This document shows, piece after piece, positions 6,279-19,811 of a stretch of 38,415 bases of DNA. Position 1 is the first letter of the stretch. Each line of letters starts with the position of its first letter. Source of the stretch: a virus. A model generated the notes under the pieces. That model saw only the letters and a program-made list of their open reading frames with translations, searched no databases and was not told the DNA's origin. The stretch is from IMG/VR virus record IMGVR_UViG_3300022198_001053, positions 1 through 38,415 of that record. The stretch is one strand, 5' to 3'. The position numbers were made by a program, and so were the translations under genes.

Positions 6279-6330
6279 GGTGATGAAAACTAACCAGCGA
6301 AGAGTTACCGCCGTCGCAATACCTAATTGT

Positions 6331-6885: not shown

Positions 6886-6924
6886 GGTTTTTTTGTTAGT
6901 TATGGTTATGCTGCTGTCAAGAAG

Positions 6925-7797: not shown

Positions 7798-8135
7798 TTA
7801 GCTTCCTTTTGCTTGTGGTTATATCTGTGCAAGATTGTCTTACAGGTGCCGATTGGGATACCTAGCTCATTGGACACTTGCCAGTAAGACAGCCCAGAAA
7901 GTCGAAGCCTGATTACGTCTTGTTGCAGGTCAAAAGCCCGCTGGCGGTTAGCCGAGCGAACCGTCTTTTTTTGGGGGTCTGGGAACGTAGCGTGCTTGGC
8001 AACAACGCCGCGAGGTTGAATCAGCGTGCGGTAGTCAACGTGTCGCCCGGTAGAGTCTTCGTCTGTCGGCTTGTATTTCTCCAGCAAATGCTGGATGGCC
8101 CGAGAGGATTCGCAAATGCGGTTGCCTTCAAACAT
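7794..8135 (-). CDS. Helix-turn-helix protein, about 113 aa
   Basis: The C-terminal 45 residues carry a sigma-70-region-4-like helix-turn-helix (LQQDVIRLRLSGLSYWQVSN followed by ELGIPIGTCKTILHRYNHKQ), with a basic tail. The N-terminal half (FEGNRICESSRAIQHLLEKY) has no recognised domain. I chose the ATG at 8135, which overlaps the upstream stop by 8 bp; an in-frame ATG at 8162 would add nine basic residues. It may regulate phage genes or bind DNA for another purpose. With the ribbon-helix-helix candidate at 14218 it is one of two plausible partners for the operators near 19 kb. Confidence 0.68.
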   Translation of the reverse strand: MFEGNRICESSRAIQHLLEKYKPTDEDSTGRHVDYRTLIQPRGVVAKHATFPDPQKKTVRSANRQRAFDLQQDVIRLRLSGLSYWQVSNELGIPIGTCKTILHRYNHKQKEAK

Positions 8136-8313
8136 CGTCGGCTTCTTTCGTGTAGTCCGCAACCTGAGCGAGCAAGACGAGAGCCTCTGCCCCCACCTTC
8201 ATCCGCTCAAGGCTTTTGAAAAAGGCGACCTCATCGCCGTCTCGGTATGCTTCCTCGGCATCCCGAAGCAGCGCGTTAGTCACTTGTTTGATTTGCTCGT
8301 TAGTATCTTTCAT
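8128..8313 (-). CDS. Small helical hypothetical protein, 61 aa
   Basis: Predominantly helical, charged protein (MKDTNEQIKQVTNALLRDAE) without recognisable motifs. It overlaps the end of the HNH gene by 14 bp and the start of the helix-turn-helix gene by 8 bp, typical of the tightly packed minus-strand operon. Function unknown. Confidence 0.6.
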   Translation of the reverse strand: MKDTNEQIKQVTNALLRDAEEAYRDGDEVAFFKSLERMKVGAEALVLLAQVADYTKEADDV

Positions 8314-8605
8314 TTGTAATCCTCAAAATCCAGTTGTTTTCCTCGGCCCAGGCTGGGTTGTTATGAATATAGTTATGGCAAAAGCGGCAGACTGCAACGA
8401 AAATCGTCGTGTCGCATAGCTTCCCGCCGCGCCCCAAGGGGAGACGGTGATGAATGTCTATTGCTTTGTTCGTTTCGCATATCTCACAGATAGGTCTTTT
8501 CTTTATATGGCCGCTCTTGAGCTTGCGGTATTCCTTTAGTTCTTCGGCACGCTTAGACGACACGCGGTTAAGCGGTGTCTTACGTTTCAGCGGTGAGCGT
8601 TTCAT
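8300..8605 (-). CDS. HNH endonuclease, 101 aa
   Basis: The basic N-terminus MKRSPLKRKTPLNRVSSKRA is typical of small phage HNH proteins. The catalytic core follows: a CxxC pair at residues 40-43, IHHR at 51-54, a second CxxC at 73-76, and H77/H81 in CRFCHNYIHNN. The zinc-finger-supported ββα-metal site therefore appears complete. The ATG at 8605 overlaps the methylase stop as ATGA, so I prefer it to the upstream in-frame ATG at 8623. Small phage HNH proteins may support packaging or cut DNA. This one sits next to the methylase and away from the terminase, so it could be a paired nuclease or a homing enzyme. Confidence 0.88.
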   Translation of the reverse strand: MKRSPLKRKTPLNRVSSKRAEELKEYRKLKSGHIKKRPICEICETNKAIDIHHRLPLGRGGKLCDTTIFVAVCRFCHNYIHNNPAWAEENNWILRITNERY

Positions 8606-9461
8606 TTTGATAGAAGTTCCCATGCGAGTGCAGCCACCGCCGGGACTTGTCCGTTTCCAATGGCTTTAAGTCTGTCCACCCTAGCGGCCACCCCATTAGC
8701 CACTCGACCCACACCGGATTTAGGGGCATCGGCCGGGTCGGTTGTCCACCATGCGCCTGACTGGTTAGAGTTGGGGTTTTCCGAGTAAATTCTGCTGGAT
8801 ATGCTGCCTCCTTTGCATTGTGACACGTTGGCGTCGCCCACTCTTTTTTGCGTGATTTCTTTAATTTCGGTCGGGTCGGATACCCGCGAATCCTTGGGTG
8901 ATTGTTGAGTCCCACTTGTCCATAGTTGGCGCAAGCTGGAATCTTTGTTGCCTCGGCTACTGTTGGCGTCGGCCATGGTTCCGACAATCCACATCCTGTC
9001 CCGCTTATGAGGTGCTCCGGCATGGTGCGCTCCGAGCACTCCCCATCGCGCATCATACCCCATTTCGGCAAGGTCTTTGAGAACCGTTGCGAGTCCTCTT
9101 GTTCTGAGCAAAGGACTGTTTTCGATGAAAGCAAATCTTGGTCGAACCTCACCAATAATCCGCGCCATGTGCCGCCACATTCCGCTGCGACTTCCTTCGA
9201 TTCCTGCGCCTTTTCCTGCGGAGCTGATGTCTTGGCAGGGAAATCCTCCAGAAACGACATCAACACGGCCTCGCCATGGTCGTCCATCAAAGGTTTGAAC
9301 GTCATCCCAAATTGGGAAAGGCGGGAGAACGCCTTCATTTTGTCGGGCGCACAATACGCTTGCGGGATAAGGTTCCCACTCGACGGCGCAGACTGTTCTC
9401 CATCCAAGGAGTTTGCCTCCAAGTATTCCTCCACCAGCACCTGCGAATAAAGCCAGCTCAT
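8580..9461 (-). CDS. Overprinted open frame within the methylase gene, 293 aa
   Basis: This frame is shifted by one base relative to the methylase and stays open for 293 codons, longer than the methylase it overlaps. Its ATG lies 4 nt after the methylase ATG (ATGAATGAG), so both could use the same SD (AAGGA). The translation is not random-looking. From memory, SFLEDFPAKTSA, the segment ending in FSKTLPKWGMMRDGE, WPTPTV and LNPVWVEWLMGWPLGWTDL resemble a family of phage proteins found with dcm-like genes, often labelled hypothetical or methylase. FPAKTSA arises by frame shift from the methylase catalytic FPCQDIS, as expected if the family originated by overprinting. I cannot verify homology or expression here; it could also be a passively open frame. 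Confidence 0.5.
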   Translation of the reverse strand: MSWLYSQVLVEEYLEANSLDGEQSAPSSGNLIPQAYCAPDKMKAFSRLSQFGMTFKPLMDDHGEAVLMSFLEDFPAKTSAPQEKAQESKEVAAECGGTWRGLLVRFDQDLLSSKTVLCSEQEDSQRFSKTLPKWGMMRDGECSERTMPEHLISGTGCGLSEPWPTPTVAEATKIPACANYGQVGLNNHPRIRGYPTRPKLKKSRKKEWATPTCHNAKEAAYPAEFTRKTPTLTSQAHGGQPTRPMPLNPVWVEWLMGWPLGWTDLKPLETDKSRRWLHSHGNFYQNETLTAET

Positions 9462-9465
9462 TCAT
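8602..9465 (-). CDS. DNA (cytosine-5-)-methyltransferase, 287 aa
   Basis: Transfers a methyl group from S-adenosylmethionine to C5 of cytosine in DNA, probably protecting the phage genome from restriction. Motif I is FAGAGGG (residues 7-13). The catalytic cysteine is in GGFPCQ (C77). Motif VI is ENS (115-117) where ENV is usual. Motif VIII is near HKRDRMW (153-159). The C-terminal IX/X region is GVGRVANGVAARVDRLKAIG followed by NGQVP. The target-recognition region is short, so the enzyme is small for the family. It is preceded by a clear SD (GAAAGGAAAAATG) and its stop overlaps the HNH start. A second complete reading frame covers almost the whole gene. Confidence 0.9.
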   Translation of the reverse strand: MNELALFAGAGGGILGGKLLGWRTVCAVEWEPYPASVLCARQNEGVLPPFPIWDDVQTFDGRPWRGRVDVVSGGFPCQDISSAGKGAGIEGSRSGMWRHMARIIGEVRPRFAFIENSPLLRTRGLATVLKDLAEMGYDARWGVLGAHHAGAPHKRDRMWIVGTMADANSSRGNKDSSLRQLWTSGTQQSPKDSRVSDPTEIKEITQKRVGDANVSQCKGGSISSRIYSENPNSNQSGAWWTTDPADAPKSGVGRVANGVAARVDRLKAIGNGQVPAVAALAWELLSK

Positions 9466-9478
9466 TTTTCCTTTCTTA

Positions 9479-10744
9479 TTATGTTAGTTCCTCGAAGCAA
9501 GTATGCCTCGCGTTAAAGTTCACCGGGGCGTGGGCCAGGTTACCATCACGCAACTTCAGTTGGTAAAGTTCCGAGTAAAAGTTTGAGCCGTTAATGTCCT
9601 GCTCAATGTTTGTGATTGGGTTATCCTTGGGACGATGGATGGCAATGATGCGATGAGCATCTTCCTCAATCGAACCTGTATCACGGAAGTCCGTTCTGCT
9701 AGGTGGGCGGTTCTCCTTTTCATTACCACGGTTAAGCTGCGCGGCTACTACCATAGCGCAGCCGAGAGTCTTACGCAGCGGAATCATGGCCTTCGAGAGC
9801 GTAGTCATGCGCTCGTAAGCACCATCGCCCTTGGCCTTAATCAAGCCGAGGTAGTCAATGAACACTACGTCAGGCTTGAAGTTAGCCGCGAGCAAGCGGC
9901 ACCGCGCCTCAATGCGGTCAAGCGTGAGGTCGTGGTCGAATACGAGCAAGGGTTTCTCACGCAGCAAGCGCAACCCCTCTTGGAGTTTCTTTACTCGCTC
10001 AGGCATCTCCTCGTTAAGAGCGCGCAGATTAACACCGGCTCGCTGGCCTGCCATTTGCAGCACTACTGACTTAGATGAAGTCTCCAAGGTAAAGATAGCG
10101 ACACGCTTTCCGTTACGCAAGTTATGCCCAGCCATCTGATTGATGAAACTGCTCTTGCCTGTTGAGGTTCGTGCGCCGACGACAACGTATTCGTGCGACT
10201 GAATGCCGCCAGCGAGTCTGTCGAACGAGTCAATCCCAGTAGTAATCAGCCCCTTTGTGGCGTCCTCGCCTGACAGTTGCTCGTTAACGAACGCCACCGC
10301 TGAGTCCAAGATATCGTCAAGTGATTCATCCTGACTTTCGCTAGGCTGCATGAGGAGCTGCACGTTATCTACGGATGCACGGATGTCCTCGTAAGAAGCC
10401 TCGCCATCATCTATCTTGCTAGCGATGTCGTTGATCGCTGGCTTAACCTGGCGCAAGATTCCTGCCTCAATGACGCTCTTTAATGACGGCTTGCCGTAAG
10501 CCGAAGTCGGCGCGGCCTTTTCACACTGAGAGATTTCTTCTAGTGGGAACGAGCTACCCATCGCCAGATACAGCGCGGATACGTCGATGTGCTTGCCCTC
10601 GGTGCGTAACTTGAGAAGCGCGAGCCAGAGTTCACGGCGTTCAGTCGTTGTGAACATGGAGTCCGTCAGGCCGTCCTGAACCGCGAGGTCAATAAGCTGC
10701 GGGTTCAGGAGGCAAGAACCGATGAAGATTTGTTCAGGGTTCAT
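9479..10744 (-). CDS. Replicative DNA helicase, DnaB type, 421 aa
   Basis: Hexameric helicase that unwinds the replication fork. An N-terminal DnaB domain (residues 1-100) is followed by a RecA-like motor. Walker A is GARTSTGKS (190-198), with catalytic Glu in TLETSS (221). Walker B is VVFIDYLG (293-300), followed by AAQLNRG (334-340) and the arginine-finger region RDTGSIEEDAHRI. I chose the ATG at 10744 because it overlaps the preceding stop as ATGA and begins the conserved domain; an ATG at 10780 would add 12 residues. No primase or DNA polymerase gene is visible, so the helicase presumably recruits the host replisome. Confidence 0.93.
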   Translation of the reverse strand: MNPEQIFIGSCLLNPQLIDLAVQDGLTDSMFTTTERRELWLALLKLRTEGKHIDVSALYLAMGSSFPLEEISQCEKAAPTSAYGKPSLKSVIEAGILRQVKPAINDIASKIDDGEASYEDIRASVDNVQLLMQPSESQDESLDDILDSAVAFVNEQLSGEDATKGLITTGIDSFDRLAGGIQSHEYVVVGARTSTGKSSFINQMAGHNLRNGKRVAIFTLETSSKSVVLQMAGQRAGVNLRALNEEMPERVKKLQEGLRLLREKPLLVFDHDLTLDRIEARCRLLAANFKPDVVFIDYLGLIKAKGDGAYERMTTLSKAMIPLRKTLGCAMVVAAQLNRGNEKENRPPSRTDFRDTGSIEEDAHRIIAIHRPKDNPITNIEQDINGSNFYSELYQLKLRDGNLAHAPVNFNARHTCFEELT

Positions 10745-11562
10745 TTGCGGCGAGGGTCGTAGTTCTTCTCCATGATCCACATCTCAATATGATTCACGAA
10801 CGAGAGCCACTTGCTTTGCAAGTCCTCTGCGCTCCACTCGTGAACGTCCACCCTGCCAATCTCGTTAGTCGAGATGTAAAGGTTGTAGCCCCGGCACTTC
10901 GGACCAATCGGGTAGTCGAAGTCACCGCCCCAGACTGCGGCAACGTAGGCGGCAATCTGCATACCGTGGTCGTTGTAAGGCTTCTTGCGCTTACCTTCCT
11001 CGGTCTTGCAGGTCTTGAAGTCTAATACGCCGTAGCTATCAGGAGTCTTGAAGATGATGTCAGCGGTGCCAGCGTAACCGTGAGCGTTATTAACTACGAT
11101 GCTCTCGGAGTGCATGACTTCCAGCCCAAGGCCACTGATAACTTCGGCAACAGGCTTAACAAACTCATCACAGCTAACGGCCTTGTCGTCCACAAGGATG
11201 TCGTAAGGCATGTAAAGCAGCGGCTCTGAGTAATACTTCTCAATGGCTCCGTGAACCGTAGTGCCGAGGTCGCGTGCTGTCTTAGCAGGCGCGTCTGCCA
11301 TGTTCTTGATTGCGACTTTCCAAGCAGCGTATTCCTCGCCGCCAGATGGCGGACAATTAAACGCTGCACGAAGCATACTGTCCTCAATGTAATTCTGAAG
11401 GCCGGGGTTATTCCTGACCCGCAGAAACGCAGAGACTGACGGAAGCAGGTCGAACTTGCGTGCGTCAGCGAGCGTAGTGTCGCGCATCTCTCCGTTAGCT
11501 TTGGCGACTTGGTGCATCGCTTTACCCTCGCGGGTATACCAGTGTCCTGATTCATTACTCAT
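10741..11562 (-). CDS. PD-(D/E)XK nuclease, Cas4/RecB-like, 273 aa
   Basis: The restriction-nuclease fold is recognisable by ordered motifs: GTTVHGAIE (residues 100-108, His 104), the metal-binding Asp in GTADIIF (168), GVLDFKTCK (178-186, with the D-x-K pair) and the helical QxxxY motif MQIAAY (201-206). Phage relatives act as single-strand or double-strand exonucleases in recombination. There is a good SD (AAGGAACATTATG), and the gene overlaps the helicase (ATGA) and the SWIM gene (8 bp). The cysteines of a Cas4 iron-sulfur cluster are not evident, so RecB-like exonuclease is the safer name. Confidence 0.85.
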   Translation of the reverse strand: MSNESGHWYTREGKAMHQVAKANGEMRDTTLADARKFDLLPSVSAFLRVRNNPGLQNYIEDSMLRAAFNCPPSGGEEYAAWKVAIKNMADAPAKTARDLGTTVHGAIEKYYSEPLLYMPYDILVDDKAVSCDEFVKPVAEVISGLGLEVMHSESIVVNNAHGYAGTADIIFKTPDSYGVLDFKTCKTEEGKRKKPYNDHGMQIAAYVAAVWGGDFDYPIGPKCRGYNLYISTNEIGRVDVHEWSAEDLQSKWLSFVNHIEMWIMEKNYDPRRK

Positions 11563-11878
11563 AATGTTCCTTATCTTCTTTCTTTGTGTATTGGTGGAAA
11601 ACGTCGTCCGCTTTTCTGTTAGTAGCAGCGGCCACTACCATACAGCCGCAATAGAATATTGCAGCGTCAACGTGCTTGCAGATTGTGCGGTCACGGTAGA
11701 AGTGTCGAACAATCTTTTGGAAAATGTTCAGCTTAGGTTGGCAGCGGCACCTGTTGTCGTTACAAGTGCAAACAGGGAGTCCTTTGTTCGCCGTGAGATC
11801 CACAAGGTAAGGCTCCCGGTCACTACTAGACTCAACCCAAAACCGATAACCGGCTTCGTTGGTCTTAGTGACTTTCAT
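11555..11878 (-). CDS. SWIM zinc-finger protein, 107 aa
   Basis: The sequence has the SWIM pattern CxC-n-CxH: CTC at residues 37-39 and CKH at 67-69, after a beta-rich start (YRFWVESSSDREPYLVDL) typical of the domain. Two further cysteines (44, 46) lie between them. SWIM domains bind DNA or proteins and occur in ATPases, transposases and recombination factors. The position just upstream of the nuclease and helicase suggests a DNA-repair accessory. Start overlaps the upstream stop as ATGA. Confidence 0.75.
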   Translation of the reverse strand: MKVTKTNEAGYRFWVESSSDREPYLVDLTANKGLPVCTCNDNRCRCQPKLNIFQKIVRHFYRDRTICKHVDAAIFYCGCMVVAAATNRKADDVFHQYTKKEDKEHYE

Positions 11879-12342
11879 TTCCAGAGATTACGGCGGCAGA
11901 GCACGCCAATGATGGCGTAATTAGCGAGGTCGAGCCACGAGTCCTCAATGGATTCGTTCTTCGGTTCGCTATTGTTCTGAAGCAGGTTCTTGAGGCGGCT
12001 CACCTTGTCCCAGGTGCGGACTAGCACGCCGTATTCGCCAAAGGCAGCGATGTTGTTCGAGCCGTAGTCTCTTTGTTTAGAGTCCATCACTTGGATGTTA
12101 TCAACGGCAATACGCAAAGCCTCGCGGCCCATCTCTGTTTCGATGCCGTAAGCATCAGCCAGAGCCTCAAGCGGGTCAATGGTCGTGATGCGAACGAAGT
12201 CGAAGTCCTCGTCGCCGTTCACAATATGCCCCGTGTGCTCCCGTCCTACCGGGATGAAGTCCTCGTCAATGAGGATGTAATCGTTAGCGCGAAGCGTTTC
12301 GCCCACGCCGAGTAACCGAGTATTTTCTAAGGTTGGATTCAT
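11875..12342 (-). CDS. DUF1599-like (nucleotide-modification-associated) protein, 155 aa
   Basis: Residues about 75-155 fit, from memory, the DUF1599 family: VMDSKQRDYGSNNIAAFGEY, a Trp/Arg segment RTWDKVSRLKNLL, then NESIEDSWLDLANYAIIG. The first 50 residues form a separate beta-like part. Members occur in phages, some associated with modified nucleotides, and resemble all-alpha nucleotide pyrophosphohydrolases; catalysis is not demonstrated here. A good SD (AAAGGAATCCAATG) supports the start at 12342, although that start lies inside the preceding 55-codon gene by 59 bp. Confidence 0.72.
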   Translation of the reverse strand: MNPTLENTRLLGVGETLRANDYILIDEDFIPVGREHTGHIVNGDEDFDFVRITTIDPLEALADAYGIETEMGREALRIAVDNIQVMDSKQRDYGSNNIAAFGEYGVLVRTWDKVSRLKNLLQNNSEPKNESIEDSWLDLANYAIIGVLCRRNLWK

Positions 12343-12451
12343 TGGATTCCTTTATTTGTTGTTGTTGCTTACCGAAAATCAAATTCCAGTTCGCCTCGAA
12401 TTGAGCGCGAGGGATGGAGAGTGGTCTAGATTTGTCTCCCTTACCGTTCAT
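12284..12451 (-). CDS. Small conserved-type phage protein, 55 aa
   Basis: The first 28 residues, MNGKGDKSRPLSIPRAQFEA then NWNLIFGK, match a motif I remember from many short phage proteins of unknown function (KGxxxRP, then a WxxIFGK core). After this comes a Gln run and a basic tail (RKYSVTRRGRNASR) that overlaps the DUF1599-like gene by 59 bp. The overlapping tail may be a late extension. Confidence 0.68.
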   Translation of the reverse strand: MNGKGDKSRPLSIPRAQFEANWNLIFGKQQQQIKESNESNLRKYSVTRRGRNASR

Positions 12452-12546
12452 GTTTATCTTTAGGTTTAAATTTTACCGGGTATTTTCGCACCGCCCCGGC
12501 TGGCGTCGTTGGCCCTTCGGCAGATGGCTCTGCTTGAAAGTAATGG

Positions 12547-12726
12547 TTAATTGTAATCGGAACCTTCACCGTCACCGTTACCGAAGCCGGAACCGTGACC
12601 GCTACCGTTACCGTAACCGTCACCGCCACCGTAACCGTAACCGTAACCGTAACCGTCACCGGAACCGGAAGCGTAACCGGAACCATAACCGTAACTGGAA
12701 CCGTAATCGTAAATCACTCCGTCCAT
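12547..12726 (-). CDS. Gly/Tyr-repeat low-complexity protein, 59 aa
   Basis: Starts at the ATG at 12726, inside the last codons of the DUF6948-like gene (13-bp overlap). It reads MDGVIYDYGSSYGYGSGYAS and continues as nearly perfect X-Gly alternation (GYGYGYGYGGGDGYGNGSGH). Every second residue is glycine, and the other is Tyr, Ser, Asp or Asn. At DNA level this is a decayed 6-bp tandem repeat of the type GGTTAC. The frame is preferred over two other long frames in the repeat because it starts at a coupled ATG and gives the GYG pattern I recall from other phage mini-proteins near DUF6948 genes. Function unknown; such sequences can self-associate. Confidence 0.7.
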   Translation of the reverse strand: MDGVIYDYGSSYGYGSGYASGSGDGYGYGYGYGGGDGYGNGSGHGSGFGNGDGEGSDYN

Positions 12727-13085
12727 TCGACAACCTCCGCAATAGACTTTTTGGCCTTTTCGGTTACGGGAATAATTTCACAGATTCCGATAACCTCAAT
12801 CTCGGCAACCTCGCCGGGGAACTTGCACTCTTTAGGATTACTGGTCCCTTTTGTTGCAAGGTCGGTAAGCTCTGCGGCCCCCGCCCATCGCCAGATTCGT
12901 CGGCTATTGACCAGTGTAACGCTAGTCTCTGAATTTCTGGTCTTCAGATAACCGGCGTGACAGCCGGAGTCTCGGCTACGCACAATGACATAAGGAAGGC
13001 CGTCGCTATCGGTCGCTTTAGAAATGGAATCCGCACGAACGTATTCCACGTCGTCAATCTTAATTGAGTTTGGTTTGGTATTCAT
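12714..13085 (-). CDS. DUF6948-like phage protein, 123 aa
   Basis: The sequence YVIVRSRDSGCHAGYL, followed by a Val/Thr stretch, RRIWRWAGAAELTDLATKG, KECKFPGEV, and an ending in EIIPVTEKAKKSI, agrees with the DUF6948 family as I remember it: a small phage protein of unknown role. It overlaps the end of the endonuclease VII gene (26 bp) and contains the start of the Gly/Tyr protein. Confidence 0.75.
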   Translation of the reverse strand: MNTKPNSIKIDDVEYVRADSISKATDSDGLPYVIVRSRDSGCHAGYLKTRNSETSVTLVNSRRIWRWAGAAELTDLATKGTSNPKECKFPGEVAEIEVIGICEIIPVTEKAKKSIAEVVEWTE

Positions 13086-13497
13086 ATTTTTTTTTAACCT
13101 TCTTGGCTCGTTTCCGTTTCAATCGGGCTTTCTTGTTCCTTGCAATCTTTTTTTCTGACAAAGTTTTGTGCATCGGGTGCGTGTCTGATTGTGAGTAATC
13201 CTTGGATACATAATCAGCAAGGCGGCGAAGGCACTCGGCGTAATCGGCTTTAGTCTTAGCCAGTCCGACGCGGACAAACGCATTGCGAACCTTCCCCTCC
13301 CATGCGTTACACTTACGGTCTAAGACTCCGCGAACTTTCCCGGTCTTGTGGTCGTGATCTAGGCACGGAACCTCAATCGGTAATCCTGTAATCGGGTCAA
13401 TCCCTTCTTGTTGTTTAAGGAGAGAAGCCCTTACCGTAGGGATGTCTTTAGTTTTAAGTTTCAATGTTCCCACTCCGACGTAGTTTTTTAGTATCAT
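13060..13497 (-). CDS. Endonuclease VII-like resolvase, 145 aa, zinc site degenerate
   Basis: The ββα-metal core is clear: CLDHDHKTGKVRGVLDRKCN (residues 45-64) followed by AWEGKVRNAFVRVGL, matching T4 endonuclease VII, which cuts branched DNA before packaging. T4 has two CxxC zinc pairs. Here the first (expected before residue 45) is absent and the second is reduced to one cysteine (DRKCN). The catalytic LDHDH and Asn 64 remain. The C-terminus is very basic (ARLKRKRAKKVKKKYEY), suggesting DNA binding. The ATG at 13497 lies directly after a 12-bp stem-loop, leaving no room for an SD. A later start (GTG codon 8 or TTG codon 11) is possible. Confidence 0.86.
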   Translation of the reverse strand: MILKNYVGVGTLKLKTKDIPTVRASLLKQQEGIDPITGLPIEVPCLDHDHKTGKVRGVLDRKCNAWEGKVRNAFVRVGLAKTKADYAECLRRLADYVSKDYSQSDTHPMHKTLSEKKIARNKKARLKRKRAKKVKKKYEYQTKLN

Positions 13498-13530
13498 AAC
13501 GAGCGCGGCCCTTCAATGGGGCCGCTCGTT
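13498..13530 (-). promoter_or_regulatory. Stem-loop abutting the endonuclease VII start codon
   Basis: AACGAGC pairs with GCTCGTT and GGCCC with GGGCC (12 bp with a 2-base bulge, loop 7 bases). On the minus strand the hairpin ends at the base before the ATG. No T run follows, so it is not a standard terminator. It may control translation of the nuclease or stabilise a processed RNA end. Confidence 0.6.
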
Positions 13531-13539
13531 GAGAGGTTT

Positions 13540-13850
13540 AAGGAGATTCGGTTTCCGCTCTAACGTGTTCTAGTTTCATCGACTCCAAAATGGTGGGTTA
13601 GTCAAGGCACAATTCACCCGTTGCCGGATGGACTGTGCCTGTTTCAAAGTCTCCAAAAAGTTCGGAAGCCTAAGACACGACCGGGATACTGCACGGCATC
13701 TGACACTTTTCAGCAGGGTCATCTCTGACCATCCCCGGAATCCCCCCTTGCGGGGCAATTATTAAGCAGGCTTGTGAAACCTGCACCGTTGTCCTCGTCT
13801 ACTACCGAGGCCCATCTGACCCTAACGCTGCGGGGTCTGCGGAGGGCTAA
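13540..13850 (-). ncRNA. Candidate structured non-coding RNA with GNRA-capped hairpins
   Basis: No plausible protein is encoded here, yet the minus strand shows successive hairpins: 13837-13818 (GACCC/GGGTC), 13810-13793 (CCTCG/CGAGG), 13784-13766 (GCAGG/CCTGC), 13755-13744 (CCCC-GCAA-GGGG), 13730-13717 (GGTCA-GAGA-TGACC) and 13639-13606 (GGCACA/TGTGCC enclosing ATCCG-GCAA-CGGGT). Three loops are GNRA tetraloops only when read on the minus strand, which fixes the likely sense strand. I compared it by eye with tmRNA, RNase P, group I intron cores and cobalamin riboswitches and found no convincing match. It lies between the short terminated RNA (13851-13947) and the endonuclease VII gene, so it could also be a long structured leader of that gene. 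Confidence 0.5.
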
Positions 13851-13947
13851 ATAAAAAGCCCCCAGTGGGCAAGTCACTGAGGGCTTCGCCCCTTGCGGGG
13901 GCTTGGGATAAACTCCCAAAAGTCTTCAACGGCTTGCCCACCGTTGC
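13851..13947 (-). ncRNA. Short structured RNA with own promoter and terminator (about 97 nt)
   Basis: A TGTGCTATAAT promoter ends at 13952 and predicts a start near 13947-13945. The RNA begins with hairpin CAACGG-TGGGCAAG-CCGTTG (13946-13927), then TTGGGA-GTTTA-TCCCAA, then a CCCC-GCAA-GGGG hairpin. It ends with a terminator whose arms AGCCCTCAGTG and CACTGGGGGCT (13878-13858) precede TTTTTATTT. The first loop (GGCAAG) is the exact complement of the terminator loop (CTTGCC), allowing a 6-bp kissing or pseudoknot contact, extendable to 8 bp. No open frame of note is present. I recognise no known RNA family. Confidence 0.68.
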
Positions 13948-13951
13948 AAGC

Positions 13952-13962
13952 ATTATAGCACA
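13952..13962 (-). promoter_or_regulatory. Extended -10 promoter of the short RNA
   Basis: The minus strand reads TGTGCTATAAT, a perfect TATAAT with TGn extension. A good -35 box is not visible at 16-18 bp, as expected for extended -10 promoters. It matches the GTGnTAnnAT pattern seen at four plus-strand sites in this genome. Confidence 0.7.
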
Positions 13963-13966
13963 GGTT

Positions 13967-14206
13967 TCAGCTTGAAATAGAACTTTCTTCAGGCACCTTC
14001 CCAAGCTGGTGGCCTTCAAGAATTTCCGTAATTCTTTTTTCCAAGGTAGCCTCGTAACCTGCGTTCATCAGCTCGGCCACCCACTCGGCGGCGGACTCGC
14101 TCCAGAGGGTAGCGATCTGCCAGTTACCTTGCCAGACTGCCCATTGCGGTTCGTTCTCCTCGGCGTTCTTGGCCGGGGCGACGGTGAATTTCTGTGTGTT
14201 TTTCAT
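13967..14206 (-). CDS. Hypothetical protein, 79 aa
   Basis: Starts MKNTQKFTVAPAKNAEENEP, has a Trp-rich centre (QWAVWQGNWQIATLWSES) and a helical end. I do not recognise it. Its start carries the leader element shared with the genes at 16038 and 16636 (TAAACCGAATACATATGAAA) and no SD. Its stop lies next to the promoter of the short RNA. Confidence 0.6.
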   Translation of the reverse strand: MKNTQKFTVAPAKNAEENEPQWAVWQGNWQIATLWSESAAEWVAELMNAGYEATLEKRITEILEGHQLGKVPEESSISS

Positions 14207-14217
14207 ATGTATTCGGT

Positions 14218-14439
14218 TTAATGATACTGCTTCAGTGACGGACGGACTCCAGCCTTTGGAATCCTAAAGTCTTCCCTGTCCTTAACGTATTGAATGGCTG
14301 CGTCAATGCACCTGCCAGTAGGCAAGCCAAAGGTTCGTCGCCATGATTCGATTATCAGCGCAGTCTCGTGGCTCACCCAGGTTTTTCTGAGGCGAGCACG
14401 ACCAACGCCGTTCTCTGGTGGTCTGCCTAGCTTATTCAT
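14218..14439 (-). CDS. Ribbon-helix-helix-like small protein, 73 aa
   Basis: A basic N-terminus (MNKLGRPPENGVGRARLRKT) leads into a short strand (WVSHETALIIESW) and two helices (RRTFGLPTGRCIDAAIQYVK), the layout of ribbon-helix-helix DNA-binding proteins, which bind palindromic operators as dimers. ATGA overlap with the upstream gene. The DNA-binding role is inferred from pattern only. It is one candidate for binding the TGAGAC operators at 18993-19125. Confidence 0.55.
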   Translation of the reverse strand: MNKLGRPPENGVGRARLRKTWVSHETALIIESWRRTFGLPTGRCIDAAIQYVKDREDFRIPKAGVRPSLKQYH

Positions 14440-14603
14440 TTGTTGTCCTCGTTGTTAGTCTTGTCTGATTCTGCAAGCGGTGTTTTGATTAGTATCTGGC
14501 TAAGGTCCGCGAACCGCTCAAATTCTTCGGCGCGGCGGTCATATTCTGCAAGCCGCCTCTCCGACTCCCAGTGTTCTGCATCTCTGTTTTGTGGGTAATA
14601 CAT
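14436..14603 (-). CDS. Small charged helical protein, 55 aa
   Basis: Found by reading between larger genes. ATG at 14603, stop at 14436 overlapping the next start as ATGA. The protein (MYYPQNRDAEHWESERRLAE and on) is Glu/Arg-rich and helical, with an acidic end. The coupled overlap supports it as a real gene; function unknown. Confidence 0.58.
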   Translation of the reverse strand: MYYPQNRDAEHWESERRLAEYDRRAEEFERFADLSQILIKTPLAESDKTNNEDNK

Positions 14604-14607
14604 GGGT

Positions 14608-14796
14608 TTATTTGTTGGATTGAAGTTCCTTGTTTATCTTTCGCTCAATCAGCCAAGCCGTGTGGTATCGCTCAACCTTGCGCTTCAGCCGTTCAATCTC
14701 TGCCTCGGCGTCATTGTATGCCTCGCGAAGTGCAAGAAAGCGTTTGCGTTCGACGCTGTAAGCGTTCCGCGCTTCGGTTAGTTCCTTGCTTTTCAT
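14608..14796 (-). CDS. Small coiled-coil protein, 62 aa
   Basis: Nearly all coiled coil (YNDAEAEIERLKRKVERYHT) with alternating charges. Start overlaps the preceding stop as ATGA. No family recognised; probably a small early protein that binds a partner. Confidence 0.58.
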   Translation of the reverse strand: MKSKELTEARNAYSVERKRFLALREAYNDAEAEIERLKRKVERYHTAWLIERKINKELQSNK

Positions 14797-15041
14797 CGCC
14801 GCGCCTCCATGCGGTCATCATCCTCGTCAGGCGCATTGACAATCTGCACGCCGCCGTTAGGTAGGTCCGTGATGCAATACGACTTACTAGGCGAGCCAGT
14901 AAAGCCCGATTCCTGCCCTTCTACGGGCAAATCTGCACCCGGCAAGGGTGAGGGCGCGGCCCCTTCAAGGAACGCAATGAAAGCGTCCGTGACACGGGCG
15001 ATTGAAGTGAGGGATTGGTCGTCTAAAGTTTCTCCGTTCAT
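14793..15041 (-). CDS. Hypothetical acidic protein, 82 aa
   Basis: From the ATG at 15041 the protein reads MNGETLDDQSLTSIARVTDA, then a Pro/Gly linker, a beta-like part (SYCITDLPNGGVQIVNAP) and an acidic/basic tail. An in-frame ATG at 15071 would overlap the upstream gene by 10 bp and add ten residues. No SD is visible for either start. Function unknown. Confidence 0.52.
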   Translation of the reverse strand: MNGETLDDQSLTSIARVTDAFIAFLEGAAPSPLPGADLPVEGQESGFTGSPSKSYCITDLPNGGVQIVNAPDEDDDRMEARR

Positions 15042-15061
15042 GTGGGAAAGGGATGGGAATG

Positions 15062-15265
15062 TTACAACCATTCTGAAGATTGAAAGCCCCTAGCTTCTGA
15101 TGCGAGGGAATAAAAGTAACCAAGGTTATCTTCTATGTGGCTTTGTAGTAGTTCGAGCGTAGGTTCCTTGCCTTCTTCGGCAAGGTCTTTCCGGGCTATG
15201 TGCTCAATCACGTCGAGCAAATGTTCCATTGCTTTTTCGGCATCTTGTATCGTGTAGTCTTTCAT
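15062..15265 (-). CDS. Hypothetical helical acidic protein, 67 aa
   Basis: MKDYTIQDAEKAMEHLLDVI followed by a second helix and an aromatic C-terminus (NLGYFYSLASEARGFQ). No motif recognised. It has its own 17-bp upstream gap and no clear SD. Confidence 0.55.
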   Translation of the reverse strand: MKDYTIQDAEKAMEHLLDVIEHIARKDLAEEGKEPTLELLQSHIEDNLGYFYSLASEARGFQSSEWL

Positions 15266-15282
15266 AATTATCAGTCGCTTGT

Positions 15283-15417
15283 TTATTTGAATAGCCGCCC
15301 GAGATAGGCGGCAAGTTTAATGATTGGGGAAAGCACGGCGGTTAATAGCTGTGCGATAAGAGGGGCCACCGCCGGGACAACCACGGCGGCGGCGATCAAA
15401 AAGAGGATGGCGGTCAC
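15283..15417 (-). CDS. Small membrane protein, 44 aa
   Basis: A GTG start at 15417 overlaps the upstream stop as GTGA, and the frame runs to 15283. The product is almost entirely hydrophobic (TAILFLIAAAVVVPAVAPLI and a second Leu/Ile-rich half), with a basic end (YLGRLFK), like a one- or two-pass membrane peptide. It could be an early host-membrane factor. The coupled start is the main support. Confidence 0.55.
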   Translation of the reverse strand: MTAILFLIAAAVVVPAVAPLIAQLLTAVLSPIIKLAAYLGRLFK

Positions 15418-15614
15418 CGTTCTCCCTTTGCTTTGGCTAGGGCCGTTTCAATGCGTGCGCGAATCCATTCCGGGGATTCTGCGGCATTTGCGTGGATCAG
15501 TTCCAACCAGGCTATTAGATCATCATGCGCGTTGCGAAGTTGACTGTTCTCATGCCTAAGGCGGGTAACCTCCTTGGCGATAGCCGCCTGCGCCCTTTGG
15601 GTTGATTTATTCAT
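15414..15614 (-). CDS. Small coiled-coil protein, 66 aa
   Basis: A good SD (AAGAAAGGAAATCCCATG) precedes MNKSTQRAQAAIAKEVTRLR, followed by heptad-like sequence and a Trp-containing helix. No family recognised. It is coupled to the small membrane protein downstream. Confidence 0.62.
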   Translation of the reverse strand: MNKSTQRAQAAIAKEVTRLRHENSQLRNAHDDLIAWLELIHANAAESPEWIRARIETALAKAKGER

Positions 15615-15646
15615 GGGATTTCCTTTCTTATTGGTTGATGGTTGTG

Positions 15647-15796
15647 TTAGTCGATTTCATCCCCGAAGTCACTTCGCATCCACGCCACGAGTCGGCGCGG
15701 ATTAGTGACGGCGAGCCAAACGAAGCGGCTTGCTGCAATCAAGACCAGCGCGGCAACGCAAAGTAGGTCGAGGAAGGTTTGGAGTAGCGTTTTCAT
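15647..15796 (-). CDS. Small single-pass membrane protein, 49 aa
   Basis: ATG at 15796. Residues 4-22 (LLQTFLDLLCVAALVLIAA) form one membrane helix, followed by an Arg/Trp-rich segment and an acidic end (RSDFGDEID). Positive charge after the helix suggests a cytoplasmic C-terminus. No recognised family. The leader is a GT-rich variant of the repeated start element. Confidence 0.52.
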   Translation of the reverse strand: MKTLLQTFLDLLCVAALVLIAASRFVWLAVTNPRRLVAWMRSDFGDEID

Positions 15797-15822
15797 GTGT
15801 GTGTGTGGTTTTGTGGTTAGGG

Positions 15823-16038
15823 TTAGAAGCGGGCAATCATGTATCCTGTCGCGTCTGCTATCTCTTTTTTGATGTCGTGAATCTCTTTTTTCAATTCGGA
15901 GATTTTGGCGCTGCCCTCTCGGATTAACGCCCGATCTTCTGGCAGGTTGTCGATGATATACCGAAGCAGATCACTGTTCCGATTGCCTTTGGTTGTAGTG
16001 ATGTTATGGCCGTCGCTGGCCGTTACGATGACTTTCAT
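15823..16038 (-). CDS. Small coiled-coil hypothetical protein, 71 aa
   Basis: I chose the ATG at 16038 (MKVIVTASDGHNITTTKGNR) because it follows the repeated leader and starts a beta-strand-like segment; an upstream in-frame ATG at 16086 would use the previous gene's coding sequence. The middle (KISELKKEIHDIKKEIADAT) is coiled coil. Function unknown. Confidence 0.58.
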   Translation of the reverse strand: MKVIVTASDGHNITTTKGNRNSDLLRYIIDNLPEDRALIREGSAKISELKKEIHDIKKEIADATGYMIARF

Positions 16039-16057
16039 GTGTGTATTTGGTTTATTG

Positions 16058-16636
16058 TTACTCTGTCCATTGTTTAGCCATGGCATCTGCGATGCCTTGG
16101 AAGGTCTTAGAGCGAATCTTCCACCTGTCCTTTGACGGTGGCAGGTAATGCAGCCTCATGTATTCTTTCTTGGGCAGCTTCATCATTGCTTCCTTCACGT
16201 TGTTAGTTTCCGTGAGTTTTGGCAACCCTTTTAACCAAAGGCAAGTCGCTTTTGTTTCGAGATGCCCGAACATCCATGGCTGGATGATTTGATCAGGCTT
16301 GCGTATGTGCGATGAGATGATGCTGATAGGGTTCTCTAGCGCGATCTTCGGAATCGGTGCGTCTAAAAGTCGGCTCACAAATCCCAGGGCGCGTTGCTGT
16401 CGACCATCGGCACGCTTTTCAGCGAACCATTTAGCACCTGACACTGCTAGATCAGTGCAAGGCGGGTGAGCTATCATTAAATCCCAGCCTTGGTCGATGA
16501 TGTCAAAGACATCGCCTTGATAGTGGCTACCACCGGCATCGGATGGCAGCAGGTCACAACTGGTTGCGTCGTGACCGAGTTTGGCAAAGGCGTCTCGCAC
16601 AGTGCCAGAGTATTCGCAAGCTACTAATACTTTCAT
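16058..16636 (-). CDS. Phage cytosine-methylase-like protein, 192 aa
   Basis: The N-terminus MKVLVACEYSGTVRDAFAKL is a methylase motif I variant. HPPCTDLAVSGAKWF (residues 57-71) carries the PPC catalytic-type loop and IALENP (98-103) the ENP motif. The second half (KPDQIIQPWMFG, TKATCLWLKGLP) matches a common phage family, from memory annotated as cytosine methyltransferase. It is much shorter than a standard C5 enzyme and lacks a visible target-recognition domain. It may modify DNA or a nucleotide. The leader repeats that of the gene at 16038. Confidence 0.78.
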   Translation of the reverse strand: MKVLVACEYSGTVRDAFAKLGHDATSCDLLPSDAGGSHYQGDVFDIIDQGWDLMIAHPPCTDLAVSGAKWFAEKRADGRQQRALGFVSRLLDAPIPKIALENPISIISSHIRKPDQIIQPWMFGHLETKATCLWLKGLPKLTETNNVKEAMMKLPKKEYMRLHYLPPSKDRWKIRSKTFQGIADAMAKQWTE

Positions 16637-16664
16637 GTGTATTTAGTTTATTGTTACGTGTGGT

Positions 16665-17273
16665 TTATCTGTTCCAATTATTTTTGATCGCAACCCATAT
16701 GATCGCTTGTAGCTCATAGCCCATTAATCCGTTTGCCTTTGCGATCTGTGCGGTTATCGCCTCAATGCGCCTGTATTGTTTATCGGTGACTTGTTCGGCG
16801 GTTTCGGTGATTCCATCTTTGGGTTTAGTTAAGCACGCTCGGATGTGCCACTTGTCAATAGTCACATGGTCAGGCGATAACAATCCGCAGTTCATTGCAA
16901 AAGCGTGCGTTTTTGGTGCGCTCGCTGCTATGCGTGACCCTTCATTGAGGATGCGGAAAGCCTTCGCCTTGTTACCGTTAAAGGTGCAAACTTTTACGGA
17001 GTCGGCACTCAGGCCAGATTTCCAAGCAACTAATACGGCGCGTGCGTCGATCTTATTTCGCTGCCACTTGTTGTTTGGCGACAGGCAAGAGACTACGCTC
17101 GCGCAAATGTATGGATCGACTTCAAATTCTTTTGCCAATGACTGACAAAAGGTTTGCGCGTCACGATACCACGACTTGCCGATTTCGATCTCTTGCTCAC
17201 TCGCATTAACAAGCCACGCTTTAAGATTTGCACGAATCTTGGCGTCACTCGTTTTAGTGATGGATAGTTTCAT
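16665..17273 (-). CDS. DUF7178-like, helix-hairpin-helix-type protein, 202 aa
   Basis: The segment SWYRDAQTFCQSLAKEFEVD, then ICASVVSCLSPNNKWQRNKI, NGNKAKAFRIL, PKTHAFAMN and DHVTIDKWHIRA fits a phage family I know as DUF7178. Its helical architecture and Lys/Asp pattern recall helix-hairpin-helix DNA glycosylases (the LSPNNKWQRN region and the VTIDKW aspartate). That would mean a base-excision-type activity, for example on host-modified DNA, but no catalytic residue is proven. Confidence 0.65.
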   Translation of the reverse strand: MKLSITKTSDAKIRANLKAWLVNASEQEIEIGKSWYRDAQTFCQSLAKEFEVDPYICASVVSCLSPNNKWQRNKIDARAVLVAWKSGLSADSVKVCTFNGNKAKAFRILNEGSRIAASAPKTHAFAMNCGLLSPDHVTIDKWHIRACLTKPKDGITETAEQVTDKQYRRIEAITAQIAKANGLMGYELQAIIWVAIKNNWNR

Positions 17274-17313
17274 GGTTTTTTAATCTATTGTCTCTCATGT
17301 GTAGTCTTTCGTA

Positions 17314-17703
17314 TTATTTAGCCCTCAGCAAGATGTCTGTAACAGTTTGCATCGAAACCATATACTTTTTCCCGTCACTAAGCTTGGTAATGATTGCGTC
17401 CCTGGTGCGGGCGCGAGGATTATATCCGCTTAACACATAATCTTCACCACCAATCTTAAACGTCTGTTTTAGGTGCTCTTCTGTTAAGCCAAGCATCTTA
17501 CGCATCATGCGAAGATAGGACATGTGCTCATCGACAACTTGACCGTCTTCTGACAGGTTGCTGACGTTTAGCTTAAATGTTGCGAAATGTGAGTTATATT
17601 TGCACGAATCCGCAACCAGTTGCACGTTATACTTCTTTCCAACGCTCTCTAGAGCGGCATTGATTTCGCCACGAAGGGCTTTTAGTGTTTCGTTATTTAT
17701 CAT
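17314..17703 (-). CDS. Conserved-type phage protein of unknown function, 129 aa
   Basis: The start is the ATG at 17703 (MINNETLKALRGEINAALES); the upstream extension of the frame is the shadow of the preceding gene. The pattern ATFKLNV, GLTEEHLKQTFKIGGEDYVL and SGYNPRARTRDAI resembles a widespread small phage protein whose role is unknown. Confidence 0.65.
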   Translation of the reverse strand: MINNETLKALRGEINAALESVGKKYNVQLVADSCKYNSHFATFKLNVSNLSEDGQVVDEHMSYLRMMRKMLGLTEEHLKQTFKIGGEDYVLSGYNPRARTRDAIITKLSDGKKYMVSMQTVTDILLRAK

Positions 17704-17708
17704 TGTTA

Positions 17709-17936
17709 TCAGCGAATAGCGTCTTTCAGTTCTTTTTTGATCCGTCGCGCATCTTCTCCGCGCCACGTTGTGGCATTGCACAGGAAGTAGGTGACGATGG
17801 ATTTTGCGTCGTCCATGCCGTAGCTATCGCTTACTGAGCTAAGGCATGACATTGCGTCTAAGTAAGGACGCGCCCCGAAGTATGGACTGGGCCAGGTTTT
17901 TCTGATCTCCCTGGCGATTTCGTGAATTGCTCTCAT
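17709..17936 (-). CDS. Hypothetical protein, 75 aa
   Basis: Start chosen at 17936 (MRAIHEIAREIRKTWPSPYF), with an A-rich SD-less leader; an in-frame codon further upstream would overlap the next gene. The centre (ARPYLDAMSCLSSVSDSYGM) and C-terminus (RGEDARRIKKELKDAI) appear helical. Function unknown; I recall similar small proteins in phage early operons. Confidence 0.6.
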   Translation of the reverse strand: MRAIHEIAREIRKTWPSPYFGARPYLDAMSCLSSVSDSYGMDDAKSIVTYFLCNATTWRGEDARRIKKELKDAIR

Positions 17937-17955
17937 TGTGTGTCTTTCGTTAGGG

Positions 17956-18324
17956 TTAGGCGGCAACGGCGTTCAACTCCGCCTTGCGGGCGGTGATCTT
18001 CTCAAGCTTGGCGAGGAGTTTCTTTTCCTCATTATCCAACGCCGTGGCTTCATCCTTACGGATAAAAACAGGTGTGAATTTTTCCGATTTCTTCAGGTTC
18101 AGCCGCTTAGTGTCTTGCAACTGAAATCCGTTGCGAATCGCGGCTCGAATCATGTCGAGTTGCTCTTCTTCGTTCAACGAACCAAGCCACTCTTTTTTCT
18201 CTTTCCGCGCCAACTTGATCTCGTCGCGATGTGCGAGCATTTCTTCCTTGCTGAACGAGTTGCCGCCGTTGCGGACTCGGTTATTGATTTGCTCCTTAGT
18301 AAGGAGCGTGATTTGCGTTTCCAT
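17956..18324 (-). CDS. Helical lysine-rich protein, first gene of the minus-strand operon, 122 aa
   Basis: Start is the ATG at 18324 (METQITLLTKEQINNRVRNG); the open frame above it covers the inverted-repeat leader and is not protein-like. Charged helices dominate (HRDEIKLARKEKKEWLGSLN), with a C-terminal coiled coil (ALDNEEKKLLAKLEKITARK). It is probably made earliest in infection, judging from its position after the control region. No family recognised. Confidence 0.65.
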   Translation of the reverse strand: METQITLLTKEQINNRVRNGGNSFSKEEMLAHRDEIKLARKEKKEWLGSLNEEEQLDMIRAAIRNGFQLQDTKRLNLKKSEKFTPVFIRKDEATALDNEEKKLLAKLEKITARKAELNAVAA

Positions 18325-18356
18325 TGTTTTTGTCTTTCTATTTTGCAAAACTTGGC

Positions 18357-18440
18357 CATGACGTTTTGTCATGTTGATCACTTGCGCCACGAAAAGGCGT
18401 TTTGCTTGCAAGTGTGAAATAGGCGTAGCTGCACGCCTAT
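18357..18440. promoter_or_regulatory. Cluster of three inverted repeats before the early operon
   Basis: CATGAC-GTTTT-GTCATG occupies 18357-18373. ACTTGC (18380-18385) pairs with GCAAGT (18408-18413) around a smaller GCC/GGC stem. ATAGGCGT-AGCTGC-ACGCCTAT occupies 18419-18440. All three are perfect in their arms and lie 33-116 bp before the first early start codon. They may be protein-binding sites or hairpins in the 5' leader. Confidence 0.6.
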
Positions 18441-18992
18441 GGGTTTGCTGCACTCTCACTACAGCGTCAACGTGCATGCCGAAATGAACTCTTTTTCGCT
18501 CGCCGCACAAGGTAGGCTAATACAACGTTACCTTGCTTACGCGCCCTTGGGATTGTCTCATCGGGCGGCGGGTTTTGGCCTAATTTGTTTCTCACTTCGT
18601 TGAGCCGCGAGGAATCCCTCACGACATTGCACGTTCCATTTTTGCAGACTTAGCCGCAACTTTCAAAGATCAACTGACTCGTCTCAGGCACTCGGCCTTC
18701 AACGCTCACCACTAAAGGGGATCCATTAATCAATTGCAAGCGCATTTCTTAAACAATCTTTCAAACAGCTCGTAAACCGTTGATGCGCAACGGAATAAAA
18801 TAGTGTATTTTTTTACCTGATACGCAAAAACGCAATGCGCGGCCCACAAATCACCTTCAAGGGAAGAGCGGAAGACAAGAGGGCAATAGAGGACTATAGG
18901 CACCATACGCAGCGCAACGCGCAGAGGGATTCATTGCCCTACCCTCTACCCTACCCTTGCAAACAGATCAGCCCACCATCGACCAGTCTACT

Positions 18993-19007
18993 TGAGACTG
19001 ATTCTCA
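18993..19007. promoter_or_regulatory. Operator-like palindrome 1 (TGAGACTGATTCTCA)
   Basis: 15-bp dyad with arms TGAGA/TCTCA. It is followed by TTAA, as is copy 2. Centre-to-centre distance to copy 2 is 23 bp, about two helical turns, so two dimers could bind the same face. Confidence 0.65.
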
Positions 19008-19015
19008 TTAACTCC

Positions 19016-19030
19016 TGAGACTGATTCTCG
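19016..19030. promoter_or_regulatory. Operator-like palindrome 2 (TGAGACTGATTCTCG)
   Basis: Direct repeat of copy 1 with one arm change (A to G at the last base), also followed by TTAA. Together copies 1 and 2 lie upstream of the candidate TATACT promoter at 19089. Confidence 0.65.
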
Positions 19031-19064
19031 TTAAGTGTTGCAAGTAGATTGCGCTGCAACCCTC

Positions 19065-19094
19065 TTGCGTTTGTGCGCGGCGCGCTTCTATACT
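19065..19094 (+). promoter_or_regulatory. Candidate promoter of the packaging operon
   Basis: TTGCGT, 18 bp, TATACT (19089-19094), predicting a start near 19101. The -35 match is weak. Operators 1 and 2 lie upstream and operator 3 just downstream of the predicted start, consistent with regulated transcription toward the small terminase. Confidence 0.45.
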
Positions 19095-19110
19095 ACAGCG
19101 AGATCCCACT

Positions 19111-19125
19111 TGAGACCGGGTCTCA
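19111..19125. promoter_or_regulatory. Operator-like palindrome 3 (TGAGACCGGGTCTCA)
   Basis: The strongest copy: TGAGAC and GTCTCA are perfectly inverted around CGG. It lies about 10 bp downstream of the predicted plus-strand start and 41-55 bp downstream of the predicted minus-strand start, where a bound repressor could block both. Confidence 0.7.
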
Positions 19126-19137
19126 GTATCACCTGGC

Positions 19138-19257
19138 GGGGGAGGGCGTGCGCGGACCTGGGCGGGGGCGCGATTATGATTGGTTCCATAGGGGGTGTAA
19201 AATTTTCCTAAAGGGGGGCTTAACAGGGGGCTTGACACTAGGGGTAAGCTAAGGGGG
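19138..19257 (+). repeat. G-run block with tandem 12-bp repeat before small terminase
   Basis: Seven runs of four or more G occur at 19138, 19164, 19191, 19213, 19226, 19241 and 19253. GGGGGCTTAACA (19214-19225) is followed directly by GGGGGCTTGACA (19226-19237). The last four runs are separated by 7, 10 and 8 bases, allowing a G-quadruplex. The last run provides the SD-like sequence and merges with the GTG start. It may be a packaging-initiation site, a translational control element, or both. Confidence 0.6.
19173..19201 (-). promoter_or_regulatory. Candidate sigma-70 promoter toward the early operon
   Basis: On the minus strand, TTTACA (19201-19196), 17 bp, CATAAT (19178-19173). Each box has five of six consensus bases at optimal spacing. 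A start near 19166 would give a long leader (about 840 nt) before the first early gene, passing the operators and inverted repeats. Confidence 0.55.
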
Positions 19258-19811
19258 TGGATGACTCTGGTTATATCTCTCCTATTGCGGCTACTTCTGT
19301 AGTTAGTTCTGGGGGTAACGCTAACTTAGTAGAGAACCGTAAGCCGGTAGAGGCGGCACTAGCGTTAGAGTTACTAGCTGAGGGGAAGACTTATGATGAT
19401 GTAGAGGCCGCGACTGGGATAGGGTATACGGCGTTAGTGGGCCTTAAGGCTAGGCACCCGGATACGCTAGAGAAGCGCAGGAAGCAGTTAGCTTACGACG
19501 GGTTCGAGATGGCCGAGGGGCTTAGGCAACTGGCTAAGAAGAAAATGCAAATGCTGGCTGAGGATGAAGACCAGCTTATGAAAGTGAACCTCAAGGACTT
19601 AGTGCTGCCTTATGCGATTGCTCAGGATAAAGGCTTTGCTGCGCTTGAGGGGAATACCGTAAGAGTTGAGCACACGAGTAAGAAACTAAGCATTGAGGAC
19701 GCTAGGAAGCTGATTGAGGAAGCTAGGAACCAGATTCAGCAAGGGGAACTTAACGTAACGGCTAATGAGGTAACCGATGGTAATGAACCGAATGAAACAG
19801 AACTTTCCTGA
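19257..19811 (+). CDS. Small terminase subunit (predicted), 184 aa
   Basis: Begins at GTG within the last G run. Residues about 41-66 (AEGKTYDDVEAATGIGYTAL) are a helix-turn-helix typical of small terminases that recognise the packaging site. A coiled-coil oligomerisation region (MAEGLRQLAKKKMQMLAEDE) and an acidic C-terminus follow. It is first in the operon leading to the large terminase and sits next to a repeat-rich candidate pac/cos site. The name rests on architecture and synteny. Confidence 0.75.
   Translation: MDDSGYISPIAATSVVSSGGNANLVENRKPVEAALALELLAEGKTYDDVEAATGIGYTALVGLKARHPDTLEKRRKQLAYDGFEMAEGLRQLAKKKMQMLAEDEDQLMKVNLKDLVLPYAIAQDKGFAALEGNTVRVEHTSKKLSIEDARKLIEEARNQIQQGELNVTANEVTDGNEPNETELS

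Follow-up and report, generated by a model that had tools for sequence, protein, structure and literature searches.

Short, mutually complementary hairpin loops join two RNAs in the ColE1 RNA I/RNA II pair and in phi29 pRNA, and complementary stretches of the C4 antisense RNA act on termination or on the expression of genes of the phage itself. The P1-P7 C4 antisense RNA (RF01695) is recorded in table passages of PMC2864571. According to passages of PMC4825925, the CI RNA of phage P4 is released by processing of a longer transcript and has its pairing partners, seqA and seqC, outside itself, and IsrK of prophage Gifsy-1 has a promoter, a short RNA and a terminator, with read-through into downstream phage genes. 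These two cases, as presented there, demonstrate the use by phages of similarly laid-out short RNAs for the control of termination or read-through. Passages of PMC11109978 (Nucleic Acids Res 2024) describe the fhsA motif (WRC-63-1), a weak candidate riboswitch that precedes the metabolic gene fhsA in Leptotrichia and in environmental DNA; its authors suggest that pairing would prevent the terminator.

Here we analyse a 38,415-base virus record, the whole of which is called the window, in which an earlier note had picked out a small minus-strand RNA with complementary loops. Unlike ColE1 RNA I/RNA II and phi29 pRNA, the window RNA carries its complementary loops in one RNA, and one of them is the terminator loop. 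The C4 antisense RNA is comparable in being a short phage RNA with complementary stretches. The P4 CI RNA is likewise a short phage RNA, in which complementary stretches govern termination in, or expression of, the replication genes of the phage itself (passages of PMC4825925), but the window RNA holds both complements within one molecule. IsrK acts in trans on its own read-through RNA, as described in part of the same paper, whereas for the window RNA a duplex scan brought up no such target. The fhsA motif, in the cited passages, shares with the window RNA an arrangement in which the loop of a terminator-like hairpin might base-pair with the hairpin that precedes it; it differs in being a cellular leader, and the word phage is absent from the main text of PMC11109978. 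A literature search, with most subscription papers outside it, found no description of this arrangement in phages.

The earlier note had recognized no known family, and this agrees with Rfam 15, where no family reached its gathering threshold and all hits below threshold were weak. A scan of the window returned the tRNA gene only (Table 1). A permissive scan of 13400-14100 listed, all below threshold (thresholds in brackets), CRISPR-DR57 on the plus strand at 23.1 (39), sX11 at 15.4 (70) and MOSES4 at 14.3 (54.8); the first of these, a CRISPR repeat model (RF01370; scores in bits), lies at 13882-13913 (+), opposite hairpin 3. In the L032 and L034 regions nothing came near threshold, and there were no matches in L041, L042, L044 and L045. 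The C4 model RF01695 had no match in the scans of the window, of 13400-14100 or of L041, L042, L044 and L045.

The predicted RNA and its surroundings

The extended -10, serial hairpins and intrinsic terminator described on the minus strand by the earlier note are all present by sequence and by RNAfold (Table 1). The promoter lacks a good -35 and is absent from a consensus scan that requires one. Transcription is predicted to start at about 13946-13945 (-), giving an RNA from about 13945 to 13852 (-) of ~94 nt, slightly below the roughly 97 nt first estimated. RNAfold returns exactly four hairpins for it, at -50.2 kcal/mol (z = -4.91), and none of 200 shuffles folds as low. Of the 24 terminator-like sites that a scan of 6000-20200 listed, this terminator has the highest number of base pairs. 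The earlier note had matched the loop of hairpin 1 to that of the terminator over six letters (GGCAAG/CTTGCC); this complementarity is exact, and its full extent is 8 nt (TGGGCAAG/CTTGCCCA), the final two letters sitting in the terminator 3′ arm. Two open reading frames with TTG starts, 13719-13919 and 13822-14019, were not taken as genes because they cross the promoter or the hairpins.

Table 1. Positions in the window of the predicted RNA, its parts and neighbouring genes.
Feature	Position	Strand	Basis or remark
Extended -10, perfect, TGCTATAAT (TGC-TATAAT)	13952..13960	-	read from sequence
TGC of extended -10	13960-13958	-	read from sequence
TATAAT of extended -10	13957-13952	-	read from sequence
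Hairpin 1, extreme 5′ end of predicted RNA	13927..13946	-	sequence and RNAfold
Hairpin 1 5′ arm, CAACGG	13946-13941	-	read from sequence
Hairpin 1 loop, TGGGCAAG	13940-13933	-	complementary to 13873-13866
Hairpin 1 3′ arm, CCGTTG	13932-13927	-	read from sequence
Hairpin 2 (TTGGGA/TCCCAA)	13903..13919	-	RNAfold
Hairpin 3 (GCCCC/GGGGC)	13888..13902	-	RNAfold
Intrinsic terminator, 11-bp GC-rich stem and T run	13853..13885	-	RNAfold and terminator scan
Terminator 5′ arm, AGCCCTCAGTG	13885-13875	-	read from sequence
Terminator loop, ACTTGCC	13874-13868	-	read from sequence
Terminator 3′ arm, CACTGGGGGCT	13867-13857	-	followed by T run to 13853
CTTGCCCA, 8-nt complement of hairpin 1 loop, proposed kissing contact	13866..13873	-	sequence and relatives
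Endonuclease VII family gene, first gene downstream of the RNA	13060..13497	-	PHROG 423, E = 7.9e-41
DnaB helicase	9479-10780		DnaB_C domain match
tRNA gene	6171-6242	-	RF00005, 72.1 bits

The endonuclease VII gene heads a replication/recombination block that also includes an exonuclease and the DnaB helicase. The ~350 nt between the RNA terminator and this gene (13498-13850, minus strand) contain no convincing gene; the equivalent gap in the syntenic relative described below (G002) is about 550 nt, with TATAAT immediately after the terminator. The window stretch folds little better than its shuffles (z = -1.7), and a G002 stretch gives z = -1.9. A strong GC-rich hairpin at about 13498-13530 (-) ends just 5′ of the predicted endonuclease VII ATG and may cover the ribosome site of that gene or take its place. 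Cumulative GC skew has a local minimum in the left arm at about 13-15 kb (13001-15000), close to the RNA; it could mark an origin, with gene direction as a confounder of the skew. Elsewhere in the window, a 122-aa protein encoded at 7794-8162 (-) weakly matches a phage family annotated as RNase E (PHROG 645, E = 0.00034), and at about 12547-12726 the sequence is of low complexity, its minus strand coding for a repeat rich in Gly/Tyr/Ser and its plus strand carrying repeat ORFs rich in Arg/Asn.

The locus in a syntenic relative and in a second lineage

A terminase query returned 27 loci, of which only one, followed further, yielded a syntenic locus: G002 (IMGVR_UViG_3300007519_000032, the record behind L009), located without use of any loop letter. 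Its terminase is 65% and its endonuclease VII 52% identical to those of the window phage. Here, the RNA locus closely precedes the endonuclease VII gene on the same (minus) strand, behind a promoter with TTGACA followed by TGTGCTAGGGT, of which the TGTGCTA core is shared with the window. The 5′ hairpin AGACG-GTAACG-CGTTT (arm, loop, arm) faces a terminator with the loop CGTTAC, so that the two 6-nt loops are exactly complementary, and no other terminator in the G002 stretch that was scanned has as many base pairs. The sequence of hairpin 2 is without counterpart at the syntenic locus. The earlier note would have abandoned its proposal had relatives lost the hairpins or their complementarity; in G002 the loop letters differ and the complementarity is exact, and the contact passes.

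Within its own lineage the comparison at the locus consists of the window and G002, the near-identical contigs L003-L006 and L008 ending short of it. Protein queries with neighbouring genes and an exact 28-letter pattern found no close relatives in the viral contigs, and profiles of the exonuclease and DnaB recovered only G002 and three distant helicase loci. Used as a DNA query against 15 related records, the RNA matched none of them, as expected because its letters are not kept. The 'phages' collection contains no close relative of the window phage; the nearest named phage found, Phage C75C1, has a terminase 36% identical and no such RNA, with none of its four strong terminators having a kissing partner.

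A gapped pattern of window letters (TATAATG, GGGCAAG, CTTGCCC) had two matches in the viral contigs, L035 and L034/L043. The first is without such a structure and was set aside. The second, after a promoter, forms a 5′ hairpin and a terminator with the loops GGGCAAG/CTTGCCC, in a phage that has no match to the window terminase; since L043 was picked by those very letters, its loop match is not itself evidence. Two further loci were found by protein homology to the CHC2 zinc-ribbon protein encoded upstream: L044 (75% identical), with loops TGGGCAAG/CTTGCCCA, and L045 (53% identical), with loops GTGGAG/CTCCAC at the corresponding place. In all three the RNA sits between the CHC2 zinc-ribbon primase gene and a DNA helicase gene, which encodes a DUF927 primase/helicase in L043 and L044 and a VapE-type helicase in L045. 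Within this lineage the helicase gene was exchanged and the RNA retained. In L044 (IMGVR_UViG_3300028914_000170), just past 4558, the kissing hairpins are retained with no T run after the second, and the ribosome site of the helicase gene follows that hairpin directly.

In two prophages of class Clostridia with the best-scoring CHC2 homologues (L060 and L061), there is no RNA and the CHC2 gene abuts the next gene; the RNA therefore behaves like an inserted cassette. The CHC2 protein query found nothing in genomes; a CHC2 profile gave ten distant loci and matched 76 of 391 genomes of class Clostridia. Across the 34 loci fetched (L056-L089) there were 23 terminators and a single kissing match, a second copy of L045. 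Further orders yielded one match in nine and one in 95, both already known, and no new genome. By BLAST, the L044 RNA region had one weak 39-nt match in phages and the L045 region none, and in the 391 Clostridia-class genomes the L045 region had matches of only 18-29 nt, in seven genomes. Alignments of three sequences misplaced the 5′ part of L045, and no covariance model was made. In L040, two near-identical CCCCTAGG hairpins near 8429 (+) and 10800 (-), with loops CTAAAGA and CTAAATA, each follow an AT-rich stretch with a 6-7-nt complement; these were left as chance.

Loop complementarity against background

The background was estimated by taking the terminator loop with one base on each side and performing dinucleotide shuffles of the 5′ part of each RNA, counting only complementary runs that fall inside a hairpin loop. 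For the window, 58 of 3000 shuffles reach a 7-nt complement. In G002, by the same test, only three of 3000 reach its 8-nt run, and the corresponding counts are 16 for L044 and two for L045. In a control scan, hairpin loops within 120 nt upstream of 478 terminators were examined in 153 sequences, duplicate loci included. Complementary runs of at least 7 occurred at 13 terminators, five of which belong to the window, G002, L043, L045 and the second copy of L045; among the other 473, eight have a run of at least 7 (mostly AT-rich) and three a run of at least 8. The loop match in the window is thus only modestly unusual by itself, suggestive but not proof, since the shuffles and these background runs make it weak evidence alone.

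The evidence that decides for the contact comes from comparison with relatives. Three loop pairs, GGGCAAG/CTTGCCC, GTAACG/CGTTAC and GTGGAG/CTCCAC, represent joint changes in relatives, as a kissing-loop interaction would predict, and the loops have thus changed together at least twice. We therefore consider a loop-loop contact to be well supported by comparison, and, of the three roles offered by the earlier note (a pseudoknot, a folding switch or dimerization), intramolecular loop-loop pairing is the best supported.

Proposed role and competing readings

In all five phages (the window, G002, L043, L044 and L045) the RNA lies upstream of replication or recombination genes. We infer the synthesis of the RNA, a contact within one molecule and the following role. 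Its own promoter would produce a discrete phage RNA of ~94 nt that ends at its own terminator. On leaving the polymerase, the terminator loop would pair with the loop of the already folded 5′ hairpin, and the two ends of the RNA would be held together as a kissing complex. The kiss would govern the efficiency with which the 3′ hairpin folds and stops transcription, and would protect the short RNA, so that only a fraction of transcripts, or only those made at a certain time, would read through into the replication genes. We tentatively favour this picture of a discrete short RNA with kissing 5′ and 3′ hairpins, acting as a gate at the head of a replication module, and give it slightly less than even odds. 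A likely alternative to the gate is that a stable short RNA is made at this point, and termination cannot be the whole function because L044 keeps the hairpins and loops without a T run.

More doubtful is a trans-acting regulatory or immunity RNA, in which one loop would be the seed for another transcript and the second loop would mask that seed; the target might be the phage's own read-through RNA or that of a co-infecting phage, with the loop letters setting specificity as in the P4 CI RNA. Such a role would suit loop letters that differ between related phages with complementarity kept, and the prophage precedents IsrK and P4 CI RNA (PMC4825925, in part) combine promoter, short RNA, terminator and downstream genes. 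However, a duplex scan, with accessibility left out, of the window (minus strand 19300-6200 and the whole plus strand) and part of the G002 minus strand brought up no outstanding target, the 8-mers recur exactly at only a few other places, about as often as expected by chance, and neither an integrase nor a repressor turned up among those window genes that were scanned.

An antiterminator, in which the 5′ part would pair with arm and loop of the terminator by strand exchange and stop termination, we judge unlikely. A similar idea has been published for the fhsA motif (passages of PMC11109978), and the long-range helix can be imposed for as little as 5.7 kcal/mol in the window and in G002, and for 7.7 kcal/mol in L045; in L043 and L044, however, the cost exceeds 30 kcal/mol. 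When the base pairs of hairpin 1 were permuted, with the loop kept, and duplex energies with the terminator compared, 333, 594 and 793 of 2000 permuted stems were at least as strong as the native ones in the window, G002 and L045, respectively, so that complementarity beyond the loops, which a strand-exchange attenuator or riboswitch would require, is at chance level. Since the excess over chance is confined to the loops, intact hairpins that kiss are favoured over a strand-swapping antiterminator, and a folding switch of the kind raised in the earlier note, if it worked by strand exchange with the terminator, is not supported, the terminator fold itself being favoured in the window by the cost given above. 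RNAfold favours a different 5′ helix in L043, L044 and L045. In these RNAs and that of G002 two mutually exclusive pairings are open to the 5′ strand, one with a near partner (hairpin 1) and one with a more distant partner (an outer helix); a switch by such outer 5′ helices was rejected, as the alternative P1 helices of these four phages are not evident in the window.

Pairing of loops between molecules, which would assemble the RNA into dimers or rings in loose analogy to the phi29 packaging RNA, is less probable still. The exact 6-nt complementary loops at opposite ends of the G002 and L045 RNAs would suit inter- and intramolecular pairing equally, but the RNA adjoins replication or recombination genes in every one of the five phages, not packaging genes. 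We give as little weight to an ordinary promoter and an ordinary terminator whose loop match arose by chance. The shuffle count for the window alone would allow this, and L043 was chosen by a search with these letters, where chance matches are expected and the sister match L035 is without structure; against it, G002 and L045, which were not picked by letters, have different and exactly complementary loops that shuffles rarely equal. A DNA-level element, such as an origin or protein site with the hairpins acting in single-stranded DNA, is highly improbable: it would fit the local GC-skew minimum, the adjacent replication genes and the following stretch without a convincing gene, but in each of the window, G002, L043 and L045 the promoter and T run are oriented to yield a single RNA, and the skew is confounded by gene direction.

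The intramolecular kiss might, with less assurance than for the gate itself, define a scattered and hitherto undescribed class of phage RNAs of about 95-105 nt, placed like cassettes at the heads of replication modules in unrelated phages, each closed where its 5′ hairpin kisses a terminator or terminator-like hairpin, in which the diverged loop letters would serve as a phage-specific key for self-recognition, immunity or copy control. If the contact forms, a terminator hairpin would be held by a tertiary contact to the 5′ end of its own RNA, and the loops making that contact have changed jointly in two lineages of unrelated phages. Such a contact predicts that changing one loop would break it and that changing both would restore it. 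Covariance models fail for RNAs of this kind because the letters are not conserved, and a 5′ hairpin loop complementary to the terminator loop would give a sequence-independent signature for phage genomes.
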